DNA of 35,904 bases from Actinomycetota bacterium (GTDB lineage: Bacteria > Actinomycetota > Thermoleophilia > Gaiellales > Gaiellaceae), in the NCBI GenBank assembly GCA_013821525.1, contig JACDGR010000004.1, positions 1 through 35,904 of the forward strand. The letters run 5' to 3'. Each line of letters begins with the position of its first letter. The stretch's first letter is position 1. Both the position numbers and the translations under genes were made by a program. The notes beneath the pieces were generated by a model. That model did not search any database, was not told the DNA's origin, and saw only the letters and a program-made list of their open reading frames with translations. Shown here in pieces: positions 2,808 through 34,791 of the stretch.

Positions 2808-3547
2808 GCGAATTGGCCGGTTGGACGACCGACGAGGTAGCCCTGAACCAATCGAATGCCGCACGCGCGACACGCCTCGAGCTCGGCTTGCGTCTCGACG
2901 CCCTCGGCGATGACCGCGATCCCGACCTCGTTGCAGAACCGGGTGATCGCGGCGACGAGCTTGAGCCGTCGTGGAATCTGATCCATGCCTCGGATCATCG
3001 TCATGTCGAGTTTGACGATCTCGGGCTCGAACGCGATCAGCGCCTCGAGCTCCGAGTGTCCGGTGCCGTAGTCATCGAGCGCGACCCGATACCCGACGCA
3101 CCGGAGCCGGCCGATCTTCTCGAAGCCCTCGTCGAGATCGATCCGCACGTGCTCGGTGAGCTCGAGCACCACTCGCCCGGCATGCCGAGACAGCATTGAA
3201 TCGGTCGCGTATAGCTCCTCATCGTCGAGCTCGCCGCCGTGCACGTTCACGAACAGGTGAACGTGCACGGGCATCAGGTGAATCACGCCGGCGAGGTACG
3301 CGCGGATCGCGCGCCCGAGCTCGTGAAGCCGCCCGAGGTGGATCGCCGCCTCGATGAAGGTCTCGGGCTGTCCGAGCTGCGCATCGTTGCAACGCAGCAG
3401 CGCCTCGTAGCCGTAGACCTCGAGCGTGTCGACGTGCGCGATTCGCTGGAAATCCATGCGCAGGGTGGAGAGAGCGGCGTCGAATTGGGCGTGGGTTGCG
3501 GCCGTCCCGCCGAGCAGATCCGAGATAGACGGATCGTCGTCGGCCAT
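2804..3547 (-). CDS. EAL-domain protein (putative cyclic-di-GMP phosphodiesterase)
   Basis: YGYEALLR, FVNVHG, VLELTE, ALDDYGTGHS, VKLDM, VIAEGVET, VQGYLVGRP = ordered EAL-domain motifs. Confidence 0.88.
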   Translation of the reverse strand: MADDDPSISDLLGGTAATHAQFDAALSTLRMDFQRIAHVDTLEVYGYEALLRCNDAQLGQPETFIEAAIHLGRLHELGRAIRAYLAGVIHLMPVHVHLFVNVHGGELDDEELYATDSMLSRHAGRVVLELTEHVRIDLDEGFEKIGRLRCVGYRVALDDYGTGHSELEALIAFEPEIVKLDMTMIRGMDQIPRRLKLVAAITRFCNEVGIAVIAEGVETQAELEACRACGIRLVQGYLVGRPTGQFA

Positions 3548-4023
3548 CAGCTGCACCCGTGCACGAGTGCGGTGATGACTGCGGCGACCGCGATGCCCAG
3601 CGCCGTGATGATCGGGACGATCATCTTGCCGCGCCGCTCGCTCGCCGCGTCGGTCTTCGCGGTGATGTCGACGATCGTGGTCAGCTTGGTTTCGATCTCG
3701 ATGTACCGCTCGCGGATCCTCTGGACCTCAAGCTTCTGAGCTTCGTCGGCGAGTTGCGATGCCTGCCGAAACTCGCGGAGCGCTCGCCAGAGCTCGGGCT
3801 CGGTGCCAACCGGCGTGTGCGACTCGAAACTGAATTCGCCGCGCGGCACCGTGGGCGGCGGCTCGGTTAGGCCGACGCCGCGGGGAGGGGTGCGAACGCG
3901 CAAGGTCTCGCCACGGTCGCCGAGAATTGTGCCGGGTCGCTGCGGACGCGGCGGCCTTGGCTCCTGCGGTGGAGCCCAACGTCCAACGGTCGGCGGCGGC
4001 CGAGGTTTCCGATCATCCGACAC
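3547..4023 (-). CDS. Proline-rich protein with coiled coil and C-terminal TM
   Basis: GTG start; PRPPPTVGRWAPPQEPRPPRPQRP N-terminus, helical middle, MIVPIITALGIAVAAVITALV TM. Confidence 0.55.
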   Translation of the reverse strand: MSDDRKPRPPPTVGRWAPPQEPRPPRPQRPGTILGDRGETLRVRTPPRGVGLTEPPPTVPRGEFSFESHTPVGTEPELWRALREFRQASQLADEAQKLEVQRIRERYIEIETKLTTIVDITAKTDAASERRGKMIVPIITALGIAVAAVITALVHGCS

Positions 4024-5325: not shown

Positions 5326-7541
5326 GAGTCCTGCTCGAACATGCGGGAAAAGGCCTCGGCCACGTGATCGGGCACGTCGACGCCGGGAACGGGTACTAAA
5401 GTGAGCGGACCTGCTAGGCCTACCAATCGATCGAACGAGCTATCGAACGAGCTATCAAAGGAGCCCGTTGGATAGTCGATATCGAACGAGCTCGCGAAGG
5501 ATCGGTCAAACGTCCTGCTCGACGGTGCCGCCGGAGTGAACGTGGTCGCCGAGGTCTCGACGCTGTACAGACGTGCGCCGCTAACATCGCTCACCGGGCC
5601 CGCCGCCATGAACAGCGTGTGCCCGTCGCTCGCGAATCCCGATACGACGATAGGGCCGATCGCGCTTAGGTCCTGGACCACCGTGGCAGTCAGTCCGTTG
5701 ATATCGACCGCGACGAGGTTGCTGCCCGACGTGATCCACACGTCGCCGTTAGGTCGCTGGCACGACGCGCCGAGCGTTCCTGTGATCGCAATCTCGGTGT
5801 ACGTAACGAGCGCCTGGGTCTGGACGTTGTACTTGTACAATCCGAGCTTGTTGCCCGAGCCCTGAACGATTCCCGTGATCACGCTCGCCGTCGACGACTT
5901 GTAAATGTTCCCGAGGTTCGCGACGCCTGCTAGCGGGGTGACCTGCGTGATGTAGTTTAGGTCGTAATCAAAGACGTAGAGAGGGGCGCTGCCCGAGCCC
6001 GAGAGCAGGAGCGTCGAGAACACGACGCGCGAGATGCCATCGAGCACAACCACGCTCGGCGACTGCCCCTTGGGCGACGCCACGATCCCCGACGGGATCA
6101 CGGCGGTCATCCCTGTCGCCGCATAGGTGCCAGCGAACGAGCCCAGTGATTTATCCCAATAGCCTACTCCGAGCCCGGTGCCGTTGCGTTCGCGGTCGCC
6201 TGAGCAATAGAGCCGCCCCGTGGTTCCGGCGCTCGCGCCCCAGGCCAGCGCGTTCGCATACTTGATCCCGGCGAACTGCGTGCCGTTGAGCCCGTAGTAG
6301 CCGATCAGGATCGGATTAACGTTGCCGTTGGAATTCCACGCCGCCGACGGGTCGTACTTGAACAGCACGCCGTTGGGGTAACCAGCGATGTAGACTGTGC
6401 CGCCGACGTTCAGCCGAGGCCCTTGGCTAACCGCGGTGTTGGTCCAGACGCCATACCAAGTGACCGTGCCGGCAGGCTCGACGTCCTGAAAGAACCCGCT
6501 GTACTGCGACGTGTTGCCGATGACGCCGCTGTTTGGCAACGACGCGACGAGCGATTCGATCGCGACCGGCAGCACGTAATTCAGCGCGTAATTGACGTAC
6601 GTGTACGCACCGGTCGAGCCCGCACGCCAACCAACCTTGCCGGCGCCGCCGTCGATATCGAGCTGAGGCGGCGTCCCGGTGAGCGGGTTACTTTGCGGCG
6701 TTACGTTGCGACCGGTGACCGGAGGCGAACCACCGGCCGTGTACGTGTACATCGCGCCGTCGAGGCACCACGACTGCGTGCGCACGTTGTTCGGTTGTCC
6801 CAGCGCCGTGTCAATGATCGCGGTCCAGCCTTGGCCAACGATGTCAACGAACTGGATGTTTCCGGTGCTCGTGACCTCGTAGAGCTTGGTCGCGGTGCCC
6901 GTCGTGATGTTGAGCGCCCACAGCTGCCACGGGTTCTGGCCGAACGCGACGTAGATCCACTTGCTCGAGGTGCTCGTGTCGGGCGCGAGCCGGTACGCGT
7001 ACGTCGTGAAGCCGGCAGCATTGCTATCGCCGACGTAGCCGATGATCGTCTGCGCGAGCGTGGTCGGGTTCGTGACCACGATGCACGCCGGGCGATTCGC
7101 GCTCTCCTGTGTCCCCATGTAGAGCAGGCCCGCGGTGTCGAAGATCGCCGAGTAGAACGTAGTCGACGCGTCCGGGTTCTGCGCCGGCGATTCCGTGATC
7201 TGTGCGAGCTCGTGGATCTGCTCGTCGGTCGGGTCGTAGTACGCAGTCGACGGGCCGAACAGCGGGAAGAAGATCCGACCGTTCGCCGCGCGCAGTTGAT
7301 TCGTGTACTGGTAGAGCAGGCTTGGATAGAGGTGCGTCGTGGTGTTGTAGAGCGTCGTGACCGGAGCGGTGCCGGTCAGATTCGAAACAACGGCCCACTC
7401 CACGGGCACGCCTACGCCGCCGTCAAAACACCCGGAGATGTAGTTCCATCCCGTGTTGGCGGCGTTCCGGGAGAGCGCTGTCGTGAACTGGCGAGAGACG
7501 CTGACCGGGATGCCGTGATCAATGATCGACGGCGTCGGCAT
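5322..7541 (-). CDS. Large tail fibre-like protein, possible beta-propeller, with (S)SFD repeat linker
   Basis: 739 aa; repetitive beta-type sequence; TAAATG junction with upstream gene; C-terminal TGSFDSSFDSSFDRL. Confidence 0.55.
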   Translation of the reverse strand: MPTPSIIDHGIPVSVSRQFTTALSRNAANTGWNYISGCFDGGVGVPVEWAVVSNLTGTAPVTTLYNTTTHLYPSLLYQYTNQLRAANGRIFFPLFGPSTAYYDPTDEQIHELAQITESPAQNPDASTTFYSAIFDTAGLLYMGTQESANRPACIVVTNPTTLAQTIIGYVGDSNAAGFTTYAYRLAPDTSTSSKWIYVAFGQNPWQLWALNITTGTATKLYEVTSTGNIQFVDIVGQGWTAIIDTALGQPNNVRTQSWCLDGAMYTYTAGGSPPVTGRNVTPQSNPLTGTPPQLDIDGGAGKVGWRAGSTGAYTYVNYALNYVLPVAIESLVASLPNSGVIGNTSQYSGFFQDVEPAGTVTWYGVWTNTAVSQGPRLNVGGTVYIAGYPNGVLFKYDPSAAWNSNGNVNPILIGYYGLNGTQFAGIKYANALAWGASAGTTGRLYCSGDRERNGTGLGVGYWDKSLGSFAGTYAATGMTAVIPSGIVASPKGQSPSVVVLDGISRVVFSTLLLSGSGSAPLYVFDYDLNYITQVTPLAGVANLGNIYKSSTASVITGIVQGSGNKLGLYKYNVQTQALVTYTEIAITGTLGASCQRPNGDVWITSGSNLVAVDINGLTATVVQDLSAIGPIVVSGFASDGHTLFMAAGPVSDVSGARLYSVETSATTFTPAAPSSRTFDRSFASSFDIDYPTGSFDSSFDSSFDRLVGLAGPLTLVPVPGVDVPDHVAEAFSRMFEQDS

Positions 7542-21685: not shown

Positions 21686-22825
21686 TTAGCTCACCTTCGA
21701 AACGTGACCGGCCAGAACTTCGGCGCGGTGGGTTTGGTTGAGAGTTGCGTTCTCGTTGTCGCGCGCGATCCGCGCCTTCTCGGCCGGCGACTCGGCGAGC
21801 GAGGCATCCGCGCGACCTTGATTGATCACGCTCATCGCGCCCTGCATGACCGCCGTCGAAGCGCCAACGCGCTCGACCGCTGCGTCGAAGCGAGCCGCGA
21901 CGTAGTCGTTGCTTTTGTCAGCTGCGACATCCGCGCCGGTGACCTGCTTGATCACGGCAAGATGAATCGCGCGATCGTCGAGGGCATCGAGCTTGACCGC
22001 GGCACCGAGGATCGGACCAGACTTGGTCTCGAGCTCGACGCGCGCGCGAACGAGCGACGGCGTCGCGGAGGCCGCATCAGTGCGGGCCTTCTTCTCGTTC
22101 TTGAGCTCCTCGGTGAGCGAATCAAGACGTGCCGTGACAGCGTCGAGATTCGATTTGTGAGACGCGCCAACGGTCGTGGCTGCATCCGCGCGGGCCTTCT
22201 CGGCGCCGAGCTTTTCATTGGCAGCTGCGAGCGCAACAAGAGCTTCTTTGAGATCCATGGAGTCGTTCCTTTGCGCGCTCGGCGCCGTTTCATCGTCGGT
22301 CATAAATTCGGCATCCATTCGGAGCCGCGCGGAATCGGCGCGACCGCGTTGCACGATCGCGAGGTGGTTGCCGCGGATGTTTCGCTGCACGGCGTCGTAG
22401 CGCGTGCCGTCGGGCGCGATGCCCGGCGTCTCGTCGAGGTCGCACTCGTAGCCGCAGGAGACCTGCAACTTGCCGGCGTCCATCTTCGCGATCATCTTGG
22501 CGTCATGGATCGCGACCGAGCCGATCACGTGATCGTCGTCGGCGCGCACGTCGTTACCCGTGGTGCCAACCGAGTACTGCGCCGCGTTCGCCGCGGTCAG
22601 CAGCTCGGGCGGGTGGTCGTCGGTGACCGGGACAAGATTGAAGCTCTCGAGTGATGCCGGCGAGAACACCTCGGTGTCGGGTCGGTACTCGCGAGTGATG
22701 CCGCCGCCCGGCTTTGCGTACGTGAACACACCCGAGCGGGTGAGGTGGGCCTCGGCGACAACGGTCCCGTTGTCGCGGCGCTTGGCCGGCGAGAGGGTCC
22801 CCTTGTCGTAGTGCTGCACCCGCAT
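21686..22825 (-). CDS. DUF2213-like prohead protease fused to scaffold-like region
   Basis: LVPVTDDHPPELLTAANAAQYSVGTTG...LQVSCGYECDLDETPG...; helical, charged C-terminal half. Confidence 0.7.
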   Translation of the reverse strand: MRVQHYDKGTLSPAKRRDNGTVVAEAHLTRSGVFTYAKPGGGITREYRPDTEVFSPASLESFNLVPVTDDHPPELLTAANAAQYSVGTTGNDVRADDDHVIGSVAIHDAKMIAKMDAGKLQVSCGYECDLDETPGIAPDGTRYDAVQRNIRGNHLAIVQRGRADSARLRMDAEFMTDDETAPSAQRNDSMDLKEALVALAAANEKLGAEKARADAATTVGASHKSNLDAVTARLDSLTEELKNEKKARTDAASATPSLVRARVELETKSGPILGAAVKLDALDDRAIHLAVIKQVTGADVAADKSNDYVAARFDAAVERVGASTAVMQGAMSVINQGRADASLAESPAEKARIARDNENATLNQTHRAEVLAGHVSKVS

Positions 22826-22881
22826 CTGCCGCCCACCCTGCGGGGTGCCGGGTGCGTGGCTCCGAAATTACGGGGCGAGCA

Positions 22882-24699
22882 CTATTCGATCGCGTTCAAG
22901 ATGTCATCGAAAATTGGCTCACAGGAACATCGGCAATTGTGTACAACCAGACCTTCCGCCTCGTACCAGTTAGTACCCGTCTCAAGGTTGTAGACATGAA
23001 TCTCAAGATGACACCGGCTGTTGTCGATCACGCGATCAAGCTGATGTCCAGCCACACCCTCACGGAGACCGCTCGCGCCATCGGCGTGCACCCTGACAAT
23101 CTCAGCAAGGTCCTCCGCGCTCGGGGCGTTCAAACCAGGGGCATCATCAGACGCCCTCCTGGCAACGCTCATGATTACCCGCGTGAGAAAGTTGCGCCGC
23201 TCTTCGCCCGGGGGTGGAGCGTCAAGAAGCTTGCGGAACACTTCGGAGTCACGCGCGCCACCATTCGCGCTCAGTTGGTGCGCGATGGCGTCGAGCCAAG
23301 AAATCGCTCCGGCGCAATGTTCGCCCGAATGGCTACTACCAGCCCAAAGCAGCGCCAGAAGCTTGCTGCTGCCGCCCACGAAGCCTGCGCCGGCCGGATT
23401 CAATCGATCGAAGAGAAGGTCAAACGGGCTCGGATCAAGTGCAAGATCGTTGGCCCTGGTGAGGAGCTGCTGGCAAAACGACTGAGTGATCTCGGGATCG
23501 AGTTCAAAGCCCAAGAGCCAGTTCATATCTACAACGTCGACTTGCTCGTCGGTTCCGTCGCTGTGGAACCATCCCGCGGCACCGTCACGAAGCGAAAGTC
23601 GTCCAAGTGGCGCGAGAGAACGGAATACCTCCTCGAGAACGGCTACTCTGTTCTGTCTGTCAGCTACCTGCGGTTGGAGGCGCTCGCTGGATGCCTCGAC
23701 GACGTGATCGCCGATTTGAATCTCATGCGCAGCAACCCACCCGCGCGTCGTGAGTATCGGATGGTTTACTGTGGACGTGAGAACACGACCCTTGTCCGTC
23801 GTGATGACGGAACATTCTCCTCGGTAGAATCGCCGGTAAAGTTTACGTATCGAAGATATTGAGGAGACTGCGATGTTGCCGGGAAAACATTGGATTGCCT
23901 CGCCAGGCATTTCCTCGGGCGGATCGCTGTAGCTGAACTCGCGCCCTTCGAGAGCTTCGTGCTCCGATCGCACGCGTTCGTCCAGCACAGTGCGCCACGT
24001 CCAGCGGGTGATGCCCAGATCCTGCTGACGGCTCTGGTTGATCTGAGACGAAACCTTGCCGATCTGGTCACGCGAAATGAGCCGCGCCCTCGACTCGCCC
24101 ACGCTGAAGGTCTGATCGATATGCTTCGCCAGCTCGCGGTGCGGCATGCCACTGCTGAATGCGCGCGTGACCACCTTGTCGATGTCCGTGGTGATCACGT
24201 CTGGGATCGACTTGATCAACGCGACGTTCTCTTGCACGAAGTGATCGACCAACTGGCTCATCTTCACACCCATCGCGCGCATGTCCCGGCCCATCACGTC
24301 GACGCCGAGCGCGGCACGTACCTGCTTCCCTAGCTGCTCCTGGTTGTGCTTGTCGGCGCGGTTCGCGAACGTGCGCGCGAGCCCCTCGATCCTCGACGTA
24401 TCGAGCCGGATTCCCATGTGGTGACGCGCCAGGTTTACGAGGTCGCGGGCGCGCTTGCTCTCGCCGACGTCGTGGCGTTGGCCCTCGGCAAGCGATTGAC
24501 CGAGCAGCGCCGGGAGCTCGGATAGCAGCGGGGTGAACGCGGGCCGGATCTCGGTACGGATGAGCGACACCATGGCCTTGGCGTACTCGAGCTCGATGAG
24601 CTTCGGGTAGACCTGCCGCGGGATGCGCCGCCGTGGCTTAGCAAGCCCATAGCGCCGATGCAGCGCGACGTGATTCGCGGTGGCCAGGGTCCGATTCAC
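22882..24699 (-). CDS. MuF-like minor head protein interrupted by a Hint/intein domain
   Basis: Extein ends PPEEMPGEAIQ / CRCSCEPIFDD typical of gpF-like proteins; residues 271-588 form a Cys...HN|C intein. Confidence 0.85.
   Translation of the reverse strand: MNRTLATANHVALHRRYGLAKPRRRIPRQVYPKLIELEYAKAMVSLIRTEIRPAFTPLLSELPALLGQSLAEGQRHDVGESKRARDLVNLARHHMGIRLDTSRIEGLARTFANRADKHNQEQLGKQVRAALGVDVMGRDMRAMGVKMSQLVDHFVQENVALIKSIPDVITTDIDKVVTRAFSSGMPHRELAKHIDQTFSVGESRARLISRDQIGKVSSQINQSRQQDLGITRWTWRTVLDERVRSEHEALEGREFSYSDPPEEMPGEAIQCFPGNIAVSSISSIRKLYRRFYRGECSVITTDKGRVLTSTVNHPILTTRGWVAAHEIQIGDHVVEASSERLQPQVADRQNRVAVLEEVFRSLAPLGRLSLRDGAAGWFHSDGTDEQVDVVDMNWLLGFELDPEITQSFCQQLLTRANDLALDPSPFDLLFDRLNPAGAGFVGGSSKLLALLWAGSSHSGEHCAGAISWLDAIAHQLSANGGARDSEVFRKLLDAPPPGEERRNFLTRVIMSVARRASDDAPGLNAPSAEDLAEIVRVHADGASGLREGVAGHQLDRVIDNSRCHLEIHVYNLETGTNWYEAEGLVVHNCRCSCEPIFDDILNAIE
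22936..23889 (-). other. Intein (318 aa) within MuF-like protein
   Basis: Block A CFPGNIAV, block B TSTVNHPILTTRGWVAAHEIQIGD, blocks F/G VYNLETGTNWYEAEGLVVHN followed by C+1; boundary codons TGT (23889-23887), AAT (22938-22936), TGC (22935-22933) checked in the sequence. Confidence 0.85.
22996..23862 (+). CDS. Putative antisense-nested homing endonuclease (HTH segments plus Vsr/DUF559-like nuclease)
   Basis: MTPAVVDHAIKLMSSHTLTETARAIGVHPDNLSKVLRARGV and SVKKLAEHFGVTRATIRAQL helix-turn-helix-like segments; EELLAKRLSDLGIEFKAQEPVHIYNVDLLVGSVAVEPSRG...RTEYLLENGYSVLSVSY nuclease-like segment; entirely inside the intein. Confidence 0.75.
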   Translation: MNLKMTPAVVDHAIKLMSSHTLTETARAIGVHPDNLSKVLRARGVQTRGIIRRPPGNAHDYPREKVAPLFARGWSVKKLAEHFGVTRATIRAQLVRDGVEPRNRSGAMFARMATTSPKQRQKLAAAAHEACAGRIQSIEEKVKRARIKCKIVGPGEELLAKRLSDLGIEFKAQEPVHIYNVDLLVGSVAVEPSRGTVTKRKSSKWRERTEYLLENGYSVLSVSYLRLEALAGCLDDVIADLNLMRSNPPARREYRMVYCGRENTTLVRRDDGTFSSVESPVKFTYRRY

Positions 24700-32687: not shown

Positions 32688-33407
32688 CTAGCGCCCTCGG
32701 CTCATCTTGCGACCGCCGTTGCCGCGGTCCACGTCTGGGATCTCGACCTCGGTGAACAAGAACGACTTTTGTGGCGCCGGCTCGCCTTTCCAGGCAGGAG
32801 CGATCATCGACATCGGCACCTGAACCTCGGGCTGTGGGGCGATCGGGTCGGTGATTGGCGCGCGCGGCGGGGCGATCGCGTTGCCGGATCGTCTGAAGTT
32901 GTCGGCTAGCTGATCGAGGTCCTCGTACGGCATCCACAGCGGGATTTGCTCGAAGAACCAGTTGACCATCCCGCCCTTCGACCCGGGGTATTGCTGCTGG
33001 GTGCACCGGTGTGACTCGATCATTCGAAGGTGCGCGAGCGTTGCGCATCGAACCTCACGTTCGAGTTGGTGGCAAAACACGATAACGACCGACGAGCCGC
33101 CGTCGCGCTCGTGCTTGAGGTACGCGTTATAGGAATCGACATCGATCCCTGTGAGCCGGCCCTTGCCGAATCTGTGCGGGAACGTGGCCGACTTCCATTT
33201 CACTTCGAAGAACGACAGCGATCCGTTCTTCATCGCGGATATATCCGCGCCCGCGTAGGAGTCGGCTCCCTGGTCGCCTCGAGCGAGCGGAGCCCCGCGC
33301 TGCTGGTAGTTCAGCGACTCGCCGAAGGTTCGGTACCCGCACGCTCGCAGGTACGCGCCGACCGCGTACTCGAATGCTTCGGCCTCGGCGTGTCGCTTAA
33401 ACGCCAT
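32688..33407 (-). CDS. PD-(D/E)XK nuclease-like protein
   Basis: GADSYAGADISAMKNGSLSFFEVKWKSATFP (D...ExK); ATG at 33407. Confidence 0.55.
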   Translation of the reverse strand: MAFKRHAEAEAFEYAVGAYLRACGYRTFGESLNYQQRGAPLARGDQGADSYAGADISAMKNGSLSFFEVKWKSATFPHRFGKGRLTGIDVDSYNAYLKHERDGGSSVVIVFCHQLEREVRCATLAHLRMIESHRCTQQQYPGSKGGMVNWFFEQIPLWMPYEDLDQLADNFRRSGNAIAPPRAPITDPIAPQPEVQVPMSMIAPAWKGEPAPQKSFLFTEVEIPDVDRGNGGRKMSRGR

Positions 33408-34791
33408 CGGCCGCCTCCTCGACGTCCGTGTCTTCGTCGGGGCCCCAGAGCTCGCGCGATTTCGTGCCGACGTATGCGCCAGGTAGCGAGCCCCAGTCGA
33501 TCTGATCTTTAGTGCGCGCAACCATGGCGTAGATCGTCCAGGACGCTGGGCCGTCGCCCGTCATACGCACGCCCATGCCGCGAATCACGCACGGGATTGG
33601 AGCGAAGGAGGTGCGCCCCACGCGATCGAACGCGTCTCGCCAAACGCCAGCGAGGTCCGAGTCGGTGAGCGCTACGATCCAGCCGCTGCACCGCGGCGAC
33701 CAGTGATCGACGAACTGGTTTACGTCGTCGGCCGTCCACTCGGCGTACGTGGGAGCGAGCCCAGCCGCGCTCGACCAGTCGCTTCGCGTCTGCTCGGACG
33801 AATGAGTGCGACTACCGTACGGCGGGTCGCAGATGACCGCATCAACCACGTTGACGTCCGCGAGTGCCACCCGGTAGTCGCCGGTTCGGATATCCGGGTC
33901 GTCAGCCGTCGTCGCCACCTCTGCCACGAGCTCGGCGCCGATCGCTAGGCGGTCTTCTGCTCGAGCCGCCCTGAGTGTGGAGCCGTATCCGGCAACCGGG
34001 TCGCAAACGGTGTGGCCGTGTCTCGAGTAGTGACGCACGAGCGCCTGCATGAGCCATGCAGGCTTGCCGCGTCCGCTGGTCTGCGACACGCCGCTGCCGT
34101 CGTGGAGCTCGATCAGAACGCTCTTGAGCGCCGCTTTGGGCTTCTCGCCTTCCGCGACCAGGGCCTCGACGCGCTTGGACACCTCGGCCAGGTCGTCGCG
34201 ATCAGCGAGCGAGCTGAGCTTGCTAGCGGTAATCTCGCCAGCCTCGAGGTATTCCATGAGCGCCGGGTGATCTTTGAGCGCGTCCTCGGCCTTTTTGGCG
34301 TGCTGGACGCTGCGGTCGCTCACGCCGAGCGCGGCGGCCGCCTCTAGCTGGGTTAAATTACGAAAATTTTCGGAATTACCCGGCCTGCCCACAGGCATCT
34401 GTGCCAGCCGGCTCGCGATCAGCGCTCGCTGCGTCTCGGTCAGGTGCCGGCGATGGATGTTCTCGGCAATCACGAATCCCTGCGGATCGCCGCCGTCCTC
34501 GGGTCGTGATCCGAAAGCGCGGAGTAGCGGCTGGACGCCGAGCTGCTCGCAGGCGAGGTACCGATTGCGGCCGTCCAGTACCAGGCCGTCCAACATGACA
34601 ATCGGCTCGTGTTGGCCTTCCGCTCGAATGCTTTCGACGAGCCGTTCGAGTGCCCCGTCTCGCATGGCCGGAAAGATCCTGGACAACAGGTGGAACGGAT
34701 CGTCCTGTTTCCGGATCGGCGACACCGTTGCGAGCAAAGGCTTCGCGCCGAGCGCGCGGTCTGTGGCTGTGCTGACTGCCTTGCGTCCCAT
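33397..34791 (-). CDS. ParB-like nuclease/DNA-binding domain fused to DNA methyltransferase
   Basis: N-terminal MLDGLVLDGRNRYLACEQLG...VIAENIHRRHLTETQRALIASRLA (ParB); C-terminal VCDPVAGYGSTLRAA and VDAVICDPPYGSRTH (methyltransferase motifs I and IV). Confidence 0.85.
   Translation of the reverse strand: MGRKAVSTATDRALGAKPLLATVSPIRKQDDPFHLLSRIFPAMRDGALERLVESIRAEGQHEPIVMLDGLVLDGRNRYLACEQLGVQPLLRAFGSRPEDGGDPQGFVIAENIHRRHLTETQRALIASRLAQMPVGRPGNSENFRNLTQLEAAAALGVSDRSVQHAKKAEDALKDHPALMEYLEAGEITASKLSSLADRDDLAEVSKRVEALVAEGEKPKAALKSVLIELHDGSGVSQTSGRGKPAWLMQALVRHYSRHGHTVCDPVAGYGSTLRAARAEDRLAIGAELVAEVATTADDPDIRTGDYRVALADVNVVDAVICDPPYGSRTHSSEQTRSDWSSAAGLAPTYAEWTADDVNQFVDHWSPRCSGWIVALTDSDLAGVWRDAFDRVGRTSFAPIPCVIRGMGVRMTGDGPASWTIYAMVARTKDQIDWGSLPGAYVGTKSRELWGPDEDTDVEEAADGV

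Follow-up and report, generated by a model that had tools for sequence, protein, structure and literature searches.

Dassa et al. in 2009 reportedly described split-intein 'fractured genes' that come with endonuclease genes of the same superfamily as the one we discuss here. Two conserved protein genes seldom overlap in full on opposite strands, and claims that they do are usually doubtful. Nuclear group I introns carry homing endonuclease genes in antisense, as with I-DsqI of Didymium (PMC9548176), and the mycobacteriophage element ShiLan hides an out-of-frame HNH endonuclease in an insert within a phage methylase gene that has no splicing domains (PMC11855218). Our literature search, which covered no preprints and few subscription papers, turned up no account of an endonuclease gene lying antisense within an intein, and novelty is therefore unproven. 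Here we analyze a window of 35,904 nucleotides (contig C375 of a bacterial draft genome, holding the sole copy in that genome) that very probably carries a mobile intein whose homing endonuclease gene lies within the intein DNA on the opposite strand, codon on codon.

The host gene is a MuF-type minor head protein gene on the minus strand (22882..24699), encoding a 605-aa precursor that matches Phage_Mu_F (1.4e-15), phageSPP1_gp7 (6.7e-17), the head protein family phrog_15127 (1.5e-83) and Intein_splicing (1.8e-7). Its minus-strand neighbors encode a portal protein, a terminase and a head maturation protease, and the contig is therefore a tailed phage or prophage. Elsewhere on the minus strand, a single ORF at 33397-34791 combines a ParB-like domain with a DNA-methyltransferase-like segment. 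The predicted intein is 318 aa long (22936..23889, minus strand) and corresponds to residues 271-588 of the precursor (CFPGN...VVHN^CRC). It bears the signature of a class 1 intein (C1, T40-x-x-H43, HN^C), with Cys1 in CFPGN, T-V-N-H as block B, HVYNLE as block F, a C-terminal HN, and the Cys of the CRC motif as the next extein residue. The minus product showed no endonuclease domain in its own frame. A fractured gene with a split intein was ruled out, as the host gene is one continuous 605-aa ORF.

The minus frame might not encode a working intein at all, if a plain endonuclease insertion had merely left the other strand open, as in ShiLan. In the AF2 model of the minus product, residues 149-280 fall below pLDDT 50 and are predicted to be disordered, which this reading would accommodate, and the ShiLan element itself lacks a splicing domain (PMC11855218). 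Against it, both ends of the model are mostly at pLDDT ~90 or more and adopt a Hint-type fold. The best Foldseek matches of the splicing part are the inteins 7qss (1.5e-4) and 1dq3 (8e-4), with a low global TM because the linker is disordered. Across 31 inteins compared, C1, T40, H43 and H298 are invariant and N318 is nearly so; both Pfam and NCBIfam intein families match the minus product, and the insertion point falls exactly at the Cys of the best-conserved MuF motif. Taken with these data, a non-intein insertion is very improbable, and a ShiLan-type insertion without a detectable splicing element was ruled out by the intein domains found. We infer that the minus frame encodes a protein-splicing intein, which would excise itself from the MuF precursor.

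On the plus strand, an ORF running from an ATG at 22996-22998 to a TGA at 23860-23862 (22996..23862) encodes a protein of 288 aa (864 bp plus stop). The sequence-only reading had placed this ORF wholly within the intein (22936-23889) and had taken its product for a DNA-binding endonuclease with two helix-turn-helix (HTH) segments and a Vsr/DUF559-type nuclease; the coordinates proved exact, and HTH_23, profile and fold matches agree with the assignment. Length alone is no proof of a gene, because the GC-rich window (64% GC) contains longer spurious antisense ORFs (428, 426 and 468 aa at 6423, 19869 and 27389). Homology lifts this ORF above chance (tblastn E 2e-38 over 98% of its length). The two N-terminal HTH units (23014..23283, plus strand) appear in the AF2 model as helices at residues 7-42 and 63-96, with HTH_23 (4.8e-6), HTH_28 and HTH_31 matches at residues 21-53 and 65-91. 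Two relatives from bacterial draft genomes (L253 and L262) have extra tandem HTH units before the nuclease domain.

Profile, model and invariant residues together define a nuclease core at residues 151-226 (23446..23673, plus strand). All 48 homologues compared have E156, Y179, N180, D182 and E191, and at least 90% have R208; E156, D182 and E191 would provide the catalytic Glu and Asp residues of the EDxHD/DUF559/Vsr-like superfamily. Searched against the PDB, the family profile matched I-Bth0305I (3r3p; 2.6e-8) and the DUF559-like protein 3hrl (2.9e-9). The AlphaFold model of the protein (mean pLDDT 89.7) likewise resembles 3r3p most closely among PDB structures (prob 1.00, TMt 0.74, E 1.4e-3), so that the HHpred/AlphaFold-type comparison proposed in that reading was positive for a nuclease. 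The His-Asp of the EDxHD signature is absent from the window protein, which reads AVEPSRGT at this point (many relatives read AVEVFGGGW), and because this pair is absent we consider the protein a relative of the EDxHD family rather than a member. Overall, these matches support the prediction of an antisense-encoded, EDxHD/DUF559-like homing endonuclease that would cleave DNA. A promoter scan of 22600-24000 revealed no sigma-70-like promoter for the plus-strand gene.

A tblastn search with the plus-strand protein returned 126 phage records, with the gene nearly always antisense to a MuF or head gene, and the best homologue reached 33% identity over 98% of the protein's length. The matches come from phages of Klebsiella, Edwardsiella, Salmonella, Vibrio, Aggregatibacter, Gordonia, Pseudomonas, Acinetobacter and others. 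Single-protein searches (P0001) of the genome contigs and viral contigs gave no match. In 17 representative loci the plus frame is open in 17/17 and a MuF-intein ORF lies opposite it in 16/17, with the codons of the two strands in register and the phase never varying. Because the 18 rows of a first alignment had diverged too far to yield a search pattern, closer sub-alignments were taken for the viral-contig loci. These added ~75 further distinct loci, nearly all with both frames open in the same phase; stops in the plus frame of related inteins, a prospect raised in the sequence-only reading, turned out to be rare, with one in L090.

The exception among the 17 loci is Acinetobacter phage BUCT629 (L011), where MuF is intact and intein-less (MCKCRA) and the endonuclease gene is free-standing. 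This gene (2992-3885) is convergent with the adjoining MuF gene and may represent an intermediate. Codons TTA, CTA and TCA in the plus frame, which would stop the intein frame, number 0 in the nested genes of the 17 loci and 12 in BUCT629. Likewise, 22 loci with a GC content below 0.47 have 0 such codons where local codon usage predicts 270, with a summed probability that is not a strict P value because the loci are related.

We also sampled viral contigs encoding GHVYNLE, a sample chosen independently of the plus-strand gene and with contigs not deduplicated, and found the endonuclease antisense in 64/69 inteins among the matches listed. Among these same matches, the block F CAT codon is present in 56 of the 64 inteins with the endonuclease, and the 5 inteins without it have antisense open lengths of 8-94 codons. 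Inteins of this family reside in MuF at several sites, in Phage_min_cap2 and in a UDG-DNA polymerase A fusion, the last seen in two phage contigs (L200 and L206). In another locus (L055), the host gene has two intein-like C-terminal junctions, of which the upstream one (VHN^SQTC) precedes the one that bears the endonuclease.

A conserved open frame opposite a conserved gene may be no more than its shadow, a spurious frame that looks similar between phages just because the intein opposite it is conserved. High GC favors antisense ORFs, and the window itself holds longer spurious ones; the C-terminal part of the plus-strand protein, opposite blocks A and B, is indeed conserved mainly because of the intein. 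The phase of the overlap makes it possible to tell the two strands apart. Here the third position of a plus codon is the first position of a minus codon, and third plus positions vary most if the plus-strand protein is selected, first plus positions if the intein is. In the window's cluster, the difference between third and first codon positions is +0.136 [0.089, 0.181] over the core and -0.126 [-0.191, -0.062] over the ends. The same signs recur in 8/8 clusters, with positive values across the HTH and nuclease core and negative ones at the block F/G and A/B ends; in 7/8 clusters, the window's included, neither the core nor the end bootstrap interval contains zero.

By alignment column, conservation follows the plus-strand protein at 19-216, whereas columns 1-12 and 238-277 follow the intein; columns 173, 188-191 and 256-257 are among the few where both proteins are conserved. 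Because constraint swaps strands along the element, both genes are real and share the DNA by division. On the suggestion that synonymous sites might be conserved for the minus frame only, we found that the plus frame is also constrained, in the core. Over this core the plus-strand protein is better conserved than the minus-strand protein in every cluster, and third plus codon positions change most, the opposite of what intein constraint would leave. Moreover, the plus frame stays open in contigs of GC 0.35-0.46, a free-standing homologue exists in BUCT629 without an intein frame, and a known homing endonuclease is matched by both fold and profile. A shadow frame is accordingly a most unlikely explanation, and for the core we rejected it on the strand-specific constraint seen by cluster and by column.

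With two genes on the same DNA, the intein's block F would double as the start site of the endonuclease gene. A Shine-Dalgarno-like AAGGT and the ATG (22978..22998, plus strand) are the complement of block F (H-V-Y-N-L-E). Read backwards, this motif can be TTC GAG GTT ATA AAC ATG, which places a Shine-Dalgarno sequence seven bases before an ATG; the window's version is CTC AAG GTT GTA GAC ATG. In 60/65 loci compared to 26.9 expected, the His of block F is encoded by CAT, the antisense of ATG, and 57/75 loci have a Shine-Dalgarno match of at least 4 nt compared to 39.6 expected. Four loci (L040, L052, L076 and L015) have no start codon in block F and instead have an in-frame ATG one or two codons downstream.

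A doubly coding site spans 12 bp (23557..23568, both strands), where V188-A-V-E191 of the predicted endonuclease overlies F-H-S/G-D of the intein (residues 108-111). The intein's F-H-G/S-D motif is conserved like block B and lies exactly opposite the active-site strand VAVE. The codons [GA]TC GCC GTG GA[AG] hardly vary, even at wobble positions, in ~74 loci of very different GC; BUCT629, without an intein frame, reads GTG GCG CTG GAA at this site. A GTC/ATC swap is common, and is silent for the intein (Asp) while changing the nuclease (Val/Ile). A scan for DFHGDG...EV gave 80 sites, with the endonuclease antisense in 79/80. Taken together, these data show the FHGD motif of the intein to be selected in its own right.

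The sequence-only reading had proposed that intein and endonuclease move as one ~950-bp unit; related elements measure ~0.8-1 kb and have exact empty sites in close relatives, in line with this idea. Since the closest homologue of the window protein is only about one-third identical to it, empty sites and activity are argued from these relatives. Among Pseudomonas phages, 14 records have the element and 23 an empty site at 95-98% extein identity, and BR161a differs from BUCT566 by an insert of exactly 807 bp, which keeps the frame and lies at SIN^CKC. In Salmonella phages the element, an 816-bp insert, occurs in 58/348 records, most of the others having just the two exteins. Between PK2 and SETP13, extein identity falls from 0.97 far from the site to ~0.8 beside it, resembling co-conversion; no such dip was seen in the Pseudomonas pair, and NFG_5577 and SETP13 are too diverged to confirm it. 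The stop in L090 interrupts the endonuclease frame and leaves the intein frame intact, as the homing cycle predicts. Judged by exact presence and absence among near-identical phages, in relatives rather than in the window, the element moves.

Free-standing phage endonucleases act in competition between phages, and the enzyme could be real without still moving the intein, as a relic or in another role such as excluding competing phages. Against this stand the invariance of E156, D182 and E191 in all 48 sequences, the recent presence and absence at 95-98% extein identity, and the gene's location inside inteins (rare free-standing relatives apart). We regard this alternative as improbable, if less so than the other two.

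In the mobile-intein reading that we prefer, the minus strand would produce the MuF precursor, from which the intein, composed of splicing blocks at both ends and a largely passive linker between them, would splice itself out. The plus strand would produce a free-standing HTH and EDxHD-like endonuclease from the ribosome-binding site and start codon complementary to block F. This enzyme would cut MuF alleles that lack the intein, close to the conserved CRC codons, and the whole ~950-bp element would be copied into the cut allele during repair. Translation of the plus-strand gene, cleavage of the empty site and splicing are steps that we infer from sequence. More broadly, tailed phages probably carry a widespread and as yet undescribed class of such mobile inteins, marked by an antisense endonuclease gene that covers almost all of the intein, a block F that serves as Shine-Dalgarno sequence and start, and the 12-bp VAVE/FHGD dual site.

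Such a class would add a third combination of intein and homing endonuclease, antisense, to the fused and split-gene forms, and would explain why these inteins seem endonuclease-free in annotation. In Escherichia phage Snoke (MK931441) the intein is annotated and the antisense endonuclease gene is present but unannotated, and in Salmonella phage PK2 the plus ORF is annotated as hypothetical. The evidence for antisense overlap here is statistical, recurs in phages that infect many different hosts and is open to testing in common laboratory phages. The element would also offer a natural system for measuring the evolution of two proteins that share every codon.

Compared with canonical inteins, which carry LAGLIDADG or HNH endonucleases in frame, the element is alike in blocks A, B, F and G, in its conserved insertion sites and in its exact empty sites, but its predicted endonuclease is a separate protein from the opposite strand. 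The nuclease core resembles that of the EDxHD enzyme I-Bth0305I (3r3p, deposited as a mobile intron protein) by profile and fold; here, in contrast, the host is an intein with the gene in antisense, the nuclease follows tandem HTH units and the His-Asp is not kept. Fractured genes are likewise reported to associate an EDxHD-family gene with intein halves in phage-like genes, whereas here the host gene is continuous and the coding sequences of intein and endonuclease overlap. Didymium I-DsqI shares the antisense orientation of an endonuclease gene to its host gene within a self-splicing element, but its host is an RNA intron, where the strand need not be translated, in eukaryotic rDNA, and the enzyme is of the His-Cys family (PMC9548176). 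ShiLan, in turn, also has its endonuclease in an alternative frame, within an insert through which the host frame stays open; unlike the present gene, it is of the HNH family, lacks a Shine-Dalgarno sequence and is described as out of frame, with antisense orientation unmentioned (PMC11855218).
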